Assembly (NCBI RefSeq): GCF_002159335.1
Contig: NZ_NFHP01000001.1
Span: 1-64,000, forward strand
DNA length: 64,000 nucleotides
Source: Collinsella sp. An7
GTDB taxonomy: Bacteria; Actinomycetota; Coriobacteriia; Coriobacteriales; Coriobacteriaceae
Direction of reading: 5' to 3'
The translations under genes were made by a program, and so were the position numbers. Each line of letters begins with the position of its first letter. Position 1 is the first letter of the stretch. Shown here in pieces: positions 7,766 through 7,893 of the stretch. Under the pieces are notes generated by a model. It ran no database searches, had not been told where the DNA came from, and worked only from the letters and a program-made list of their open reading frames with translations.

Positions 7766-7893
7766 TCGCCCTCCGGCGGGTCCCGGCTGGGCATTCCCGA
7801 CGCGTGTTTCCCGCAGCCGCCTTCGCGCGGAGCGCGAACGCGGCGAGGACCACGAGCAGAGGGAATACCCAGCCGGGACCCGCCGGAGGGCGA
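7766..7893. promoter_or_regulatory. Large structured leader-like element, copy 1
   Basis: Arms 7766-7798 and 7861-7893 are complementary over 33 nt with one or two mismatches. The 62-nt interior contains ACGCG, GTT, CCGCAG, an inner stem GCCGC-TTCGCGC pairing with GCGCGAA-GCGGC, then GCGAGGAC and GAGCAG. The same ordered interior motifs occur in 54303-54427 upstream of pyrE, with different outer arms and a compensating inner stem. It ends 36 bp before the GH1 start codon. It could be an RNA leader or a mobile hairpin. Confidence 0.65.

Follow-up and report, generated by a model that had tools for sequence, protein, structure and literature searches.

Dispersed palindromes with a conserved tip and copy-specific arms in Collinsella and other bacteria are probably mobile DNA hairpins

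Two hairpin-forming elements in a 64,000 nt stretch of the Collinsella sp. An7 genome, called the window here, are probably copies of a non-autonomous mobile DNA hairpin, the core of which would be read in trans and each insertion of which would carry a target-specific pair of arms. Elements of this family are built of an apical core, comprising GAG/ACA-TTCCGCAG, a variable hairpin, and CGAGGAC followed by TGTYYGAGC or GTTCGC, which forms the apex of a long inverted repeat. The core is dispersed in many copies per genome, while the arms of these copies are unrelated to each other and nonetheless perfectly paired, which points to arms being built or captured afresh at every insertion.

Both window copies lie on the plus strand. 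Copy 1 consists of a left arm (7766–7798), a 5′ conserved module ACGCGTGTTTCCCGCAG (7800–7816; two further copies of the same genome, L044 and L119, are of this subtype), an inner variable hairpin defined by its fold and covarying among family copies (7816–7844), a 3′ conserved module CGAGGACCACGAGCAG defined by sequence and pattern matches (7844–7859), and a right arm (7861–7893) that is 97% complementary to the left one. Copy 2 is arranged likewise, with arms at 54302–54335 and 54395–54428 that are also 97% complementary, a 5′ module ACGCGAGTTCCGCAG (54336–54350; matched by pattern and by the covariance model R1 described below, E 6.6e-4), an inner variable hairpin defined by its fold (54350–54376), and a 3′ module CGAGGACTGTTTGAGCAG (54376–54393), the pattern of which, with NYGAG, occurs across phyla. 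The outer stems, described as 33 nt in both copies in the earlier note on this DNA, were measured at 33 and 34 nt, enclosing spacers of 62 and 59 nt, and rank fifth and fourth among the inverted repeats of the window. The folding z-scores were −11.4 for copy 1 and −9.3 for copy 2, and none of 200 shuffled sequences equalled either. The ordered interior that the note had reported to be common to both copies is real, since CCGCAG-N-GCGAGGAC, with the inner hairpin between, was found twice in the window, where chance would give 0.17 occurrences. Both copies share the core TTCCGCAG-variable hairpin-CGAGGAC and belong to separate subtypes (GTTTCCCGCAG..CGAGGACCAC in copy 1 and GAGTTCCGCAG..CGAGGACTGTTTGAG in copy 2), and the sequences bear out that their arms are unrelated and that their inner stems differ with compensating bases. 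As the note had placed them, both precede start codons: copy 1 ends 35 nt 5′ of the ATG at 7929 of a GH1 gene (7929–9383, plus strand; PF00232, E 5.8e-129), and copy 2 ends 31 nt 5′ of the ATG at 54460 of a pyrE-like phosphoribosyltransferase gene (54460–55137, plus strand; PF00156, Pribosyltran). An intrinsic terminator, with a GC stem and U-tract, was rejected for both, as neither has a U-tract.

Other repeats are also found in the window. Core-less palindromes of the GGGGACGGGTGCGTTTTT and ACAATGGGGACAGGTT types at 375–476, 9402–9451 and 11955–12014 look like RAYT-type repeats, and the genome carries one Y1_Tnp gene. Long inverted repeats with arms of 28–65 nt and 75–89% pairing occur at 49914–50088, 14284–14442, 20419–20577 and 6080–6222. 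The T-arm/3′ sequence of a minus-strand tRNA gene recurs in inverted form about 70 bp away (14669–14688 and 14754–14824), which is possibly an attachment-site remnant.

The pattern TTCCGCAG-N8-38-CGAGGAC matched 13 times in the An7 genome and at most 24 times in one relative, and the reversed-pattern control gave approximately none. Pattern matches, model matches and the subtype of copy 1 together amount to about 18 credible copies in this genome, and congeners hold up to 25 copies per genome. Because the hairpins were misaligned in a full-arm alignment, the covariance model R1 was built on the core only; it paired 96.8% of cells with 42 double changes, a level reached by none of 500 shuffles, and it misses the copy 1 subtype, so that the element at 7766 is absent among its matches. 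Two R1 matches (L120 at C13:136246 and L122 at C11:186417) were judged false. The further copies with covarying stems and retained loops that the note had anticipated in Coriobacteriia were thus found with the core model, which matched 80 of 150 sampled genomes of this class and, across the phylum, 12 of 199 genomes, 11 of them inside the class. By the flanks of the loops, four subtypes were distinguished, namely A (GCGAACA-core-GTTCGC), B (CGCGAG-core-TGTYYGAGC), C (GAGCGA-core-CAGCGA) and D (the type of window copy 1). The inner hairpins are highly variable yet paired, and some are terminator-like; at L055, L057, L037, L016 and L380, terminator-like hairpins with A and T tracts replace the inner hairpin.

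Besides Coriobacteriia, the long exact pattern occurs in Lachnospiraceae, Hydrogenedentota, Myxococcales, Omnitrophota, one planctomycete, Bdellovibrionales, Dormibacterota and Chloroflexi, where individual taxon assignments may be wrong because many of these genomes are metagenome assemblies. The out-of-class matches fold into the same long-armed hairpin, a few having short arms, and several of these genomes hold repeated copies of their own version of the core. A search of viral contigs, phages and plasmids as carriers gave no matches.

Within single genomes, near-identical cores stand between arms that are unrelated yet perfectly paired. Among 22 copies analysed in the Bdellovibrionales genome G189, the inner hairpins are 85% identical in the median pair, whereas the arms of different copies are 56% identical, the level of shuffled sequences, and within a copy the left arm and the reverse complement of the right arm are 97% identical. 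Some G189 arms reach about 75 nt, sharing their outer ends and inner 15–20 nt and differing in a middle that is still paired; part of the arm diversity in this genome thus goes back to inherited arms whose sequence changed while they stayed paired. Over 90 aligned internal nt, L424 and L430 of Lachnospiraceae are 100% identical, yet their outer arms, each perfectly paired, differ (TGTGGC/GCCACA versus TTTGAAAACC/GGTTTTCAAA), which leaves no time for arm drift through paired point mutations. In six Lachnospiraceae copies, 35 consecutive outer pairs were found, whereas none of the 265 possible re-pairings of their flanks, left with right, gave more than 7. In the genome G204, L431, L432 and L433 have in common an extra right-arm insertion, itself palindromic and repeating GAGCGACT; copying can thus also extend to an entire element after its arms have changed. 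A MITE of an IS family was rejected for the elements since the copies share no terminal inverted repeats, the arms being unrelated within a genome; a subset of G189 copies with common ends forms a partial exception.

The main rival to arm building is that the same mobile element inserts at the centre of pre-existing palindromes or hairpins, such as terminators or REP-like repeats, and inherits their arms, as IS1397 and IS621 do in REPs. We consider this unlikely, though it has several observations on its side: IS elements targeting palindromes are known (PMC1525189), the G189 palindrome ends AAAAAGGTGCCTGACACTTTTTCCAGTCC also occur core-less (L347) or around a different core (L352), and groEL of other families has a plain terminator hairpin where Coriobacteriaceae carry the element. 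L352 itself (G189, C158:2066–2359) is palindromic, its arms being about 100 nt long; it has similar ends and GCGAG../..TTTGAG flanks but a different apical core. Insertion into palindromes would, however, need dozens of unrelated perfect ones of 30–75 bp per arm beforehand, and comparison of orthologous loci argues against it. In relatives of G204, the genes flanking L427 and L430 are kept with neither the element nor a palindrome between them, these relatives being only 72–78% identical, and the comparison defined no exact target sequence, native arm or target-site duplication. The pyrE-leader copy is absent 5′ of the orthologue in eight of eight congeners. In the close trio G002, G003 and G007 (pyrE 96–98% identical), both arms and the inner hairpin have been jointly exchanged in one orthologous copy (sets 23/35/30), while the loops are unchanged and the downstream flank is 97–98% identical. 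Wholly different arms in orthologous copies of close congeners, seen in one gene leader, speak against inherited palindromes. Other orthologous copies in the trio have decaying arms, and in yet another the core is inverted in place between the arms (L054:7039 of G003 versus L391 and L076 of close relatives; 41/14/3). The elements thus show both presence and absence at orthologous loci and dispersed near-identical copies, the behaviour by which mobile elements are generally recognised. One Lachnospiraceae copy lies in frame within an ABC-F gene, a locus rejected as an exact empty site because the linker in the relative is too diverged or contains a remnant.

The positions and orientations of the copies bear on a different reading, in which the elements are structured cis-regulatory RNAs or small RNAs, whose internal loops are read by a protein or ligand while the long stems are free to covary. 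Fixed loops with covarying stems, the presence across the class and the sense placement of both window copies in 5′ leaders agree with such an RNA, as does an excess of G-T over A-C mismatches in sense leaders (39 versus 18, p=0.0075), whose direction is reversed behind stops (72 versus 90, p 0.18). The leader excess is weak and suggests some selection on a transcribed hairpin, transcription-linked mutation being another possible cause. Orientation is non-random in Coriobacteriia, where in 110 of 138 usable copies the closer of the two neighbouring genes is found 3′ of the core, and the bias is weak outside the class (16 versus 11). The transcribed strand is antisense at least as often as sense: of the 138 right-hand genes, 90 are antisense and 48 are sense, and 94% of the antisense genes (n=90) have their stop within 90 nt of the core. 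Copies stand 5′ of starts in one orientation and 3′ of stops in the other, next to genes with no common function (groEL, alaS, gidA, mreB, gcvP, GH1 and pyrE-like genes). As the neighbours are unrelated, a common regulated function was rejected, and so was a riboswitch or cis-regulatory RNA, neither orientation nor position being constant. Unrelated housekeeping neighbours and placement at both starts and stops according to orientation make a single-purpose riboswitch-like RNA unlikely; in-place inversion of the core, cores copied with new arms within a genome, the copy inside the ABC-F reading frame and the lack of an Rfam match also argue against a structured RNA, which we hold to be improbable. 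The note had left open a structured RNA or an arm-rebuilding element and had proposed position as the discriminator. Mixed placement at unrelated housekeeping genes favours a mobile hairpin, and this half of the proposal stands, with copies found in both orientations, 5′ of starts as well as 3′ of stops, and present or absent in close relatives, whereas a dedicated regulatory RNA is not supported.

Most Coriobacteriia copies are located 0–20 nt 3′ of stop codons, which would also fit hairpins maintained by the host at 3′-ends or leaders, terminator-like or mRNA-stabilising and selected gene by gene, with the core as a recurrent structural module. Several inner hairpins are indeed terminator-like with A and T tracts. 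The element is found 3′ of groEL in two families of the order, a long-lived position, and in G009 and G019 the arms there have outlasted the core, as expected if the hairpin is useful to the host. Nevertheless, the window copies have no U-tract, and core identity with unrelated arms, recent gains and a core spread over several phyla would all be left unexplained, so that host maintenance by itself is a very improbable account of the family. Transcribed copies of a mobile hairpin may also function as mRNA hairpins.

REP/BIME-type repeats moved by RAYT (Y1) transposases are scarcely credible as an explanation. Y1 genes are present in 24 of 44 tested genomes, and the arm ends in G189 presumably resemble RAYT repeats. 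The distribution of PF01797 has already largely refuted this reading, as the domain is absent in the many-copy genomes G189, G001 and G129, as well as in G141 and G114, and present in low-copy genomes such as G143 and G013. Size and tags are also unlike: REPs are 20–40 bp palindromes tagged GTAG or CGTC at one end (PMC3733652), whereas the present elements are 100–190 bp long, have a conserved apical core and arms that vary within a genome, and show no Y1 dependence, and membership was rejected as aligned copies carry no such terminal tag. What the REP/REPIN/BIME and RAYT systems (PMC3116915, PMC3733652) have in common with them is that many gene-less palindromes with lineage-specific stems are dispersed over a genome, in intergenic DNA close to the ends of genes. 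IS1397, ISKpn1 and IS621 (PMC1525189) would, through insertion at palindromes, also yield copy-specific inverted arms, but these encode transposases, while the present elements are gene-less and relatives show no prior palindrome. Double-hairpin elements from the mitochondrial DNA of fungi (cited in PMC5910586) are reported as small mobile DNA hairpins and, unlike the present bacterial family, are mitochondrial. Gut-bacterial RNAs of Rfam (e.g., Collinsella-1, RF01700) share covarying stems in gut Actinobacteria, although no Rfam family matches any scanned copy. MITEs, ERIC and Rickettsia palindromic elements are likewise short, non-autonomous inverted repeats that are occasionally in frame in genes; MITE ends, however, are common to copies because the transposase reads them, whereas here the ends vary and the apex is conserved. 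To our knowledge, no core sequence is common to the double-hairpin elements and the present family.

Returning to a mobile hairpin, the unpaired motifs are conserved on one DNA strand while transcription comes from either strand, which argues that what is conservedly read is DNA, and the paired arms argue for its being read in hairpin or cruciform form; therefore, a non-autonomous hairpin moved in trans is favoured. The core would fold as single-stranded DNA or as a cruciform and would be recognised in this form by a putative enzyme supplied in trans. A search for the mobilising enzyme found none, Y1/RAYT genes (PF01797) did not correlate with copy number, and a candidate autonomous version between an inverted pair in G196 was rejected since the intervening gene encodes MreB and no transposase. 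As the preferred route, we propose snap-back copying, whereby the 3′ end of the element would fold back through the core and prime copying of the flanking strand, so that the flank would be duplicated in inverted form; passage through the hairpin tip would account for arms that are perfect and site-specific. Repeated moves may each add a further outer segment to the arms, in agreement with arm sequences that are conserved close to the core and vary with distance from it. Copies in Coriobacteriia would be tolerated or kept just 3′ of stops and within 5′ leaders, and their transcribed hairpins probably protect the ends of mRNAs there or set their limits. That this is mobile DNA shared across phyla, in which only the hairpin tip is conserved and the inverted arms are copied from the strand beside each insertion, creating a new perfect palindrome with each move, is a tentative proposal that we would not yet call probable.

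The family is apparently undescribed so far. In line with the note's statement that no described family fits, scanning of the copies against Rfam at gathering and permissive thresholds matched no family, returning only microRNA-precursor models far below threshold, and searches of the open literature turned up no description of the family and none of Collinsella palindromes. We place it among the palindromic mobile repeats, and there is a real chance that arm building sets it apart as a new class. If this reading is right, a mobile hairpin conserved in at least eight phyla would be absent from RNA and repeat catalogues, which would have missed it because they key on ends and its ends change with each insertion. 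Covarying stems by themselves would then not be enough to prove a functional RNA. It would provide a natural system for the origin and survival of perfect palindromes in bacteria, with a recombination or copying enzyme to seek, and, in gut Coriobacteriia, a source of ready-made mRNA-end hairpins.
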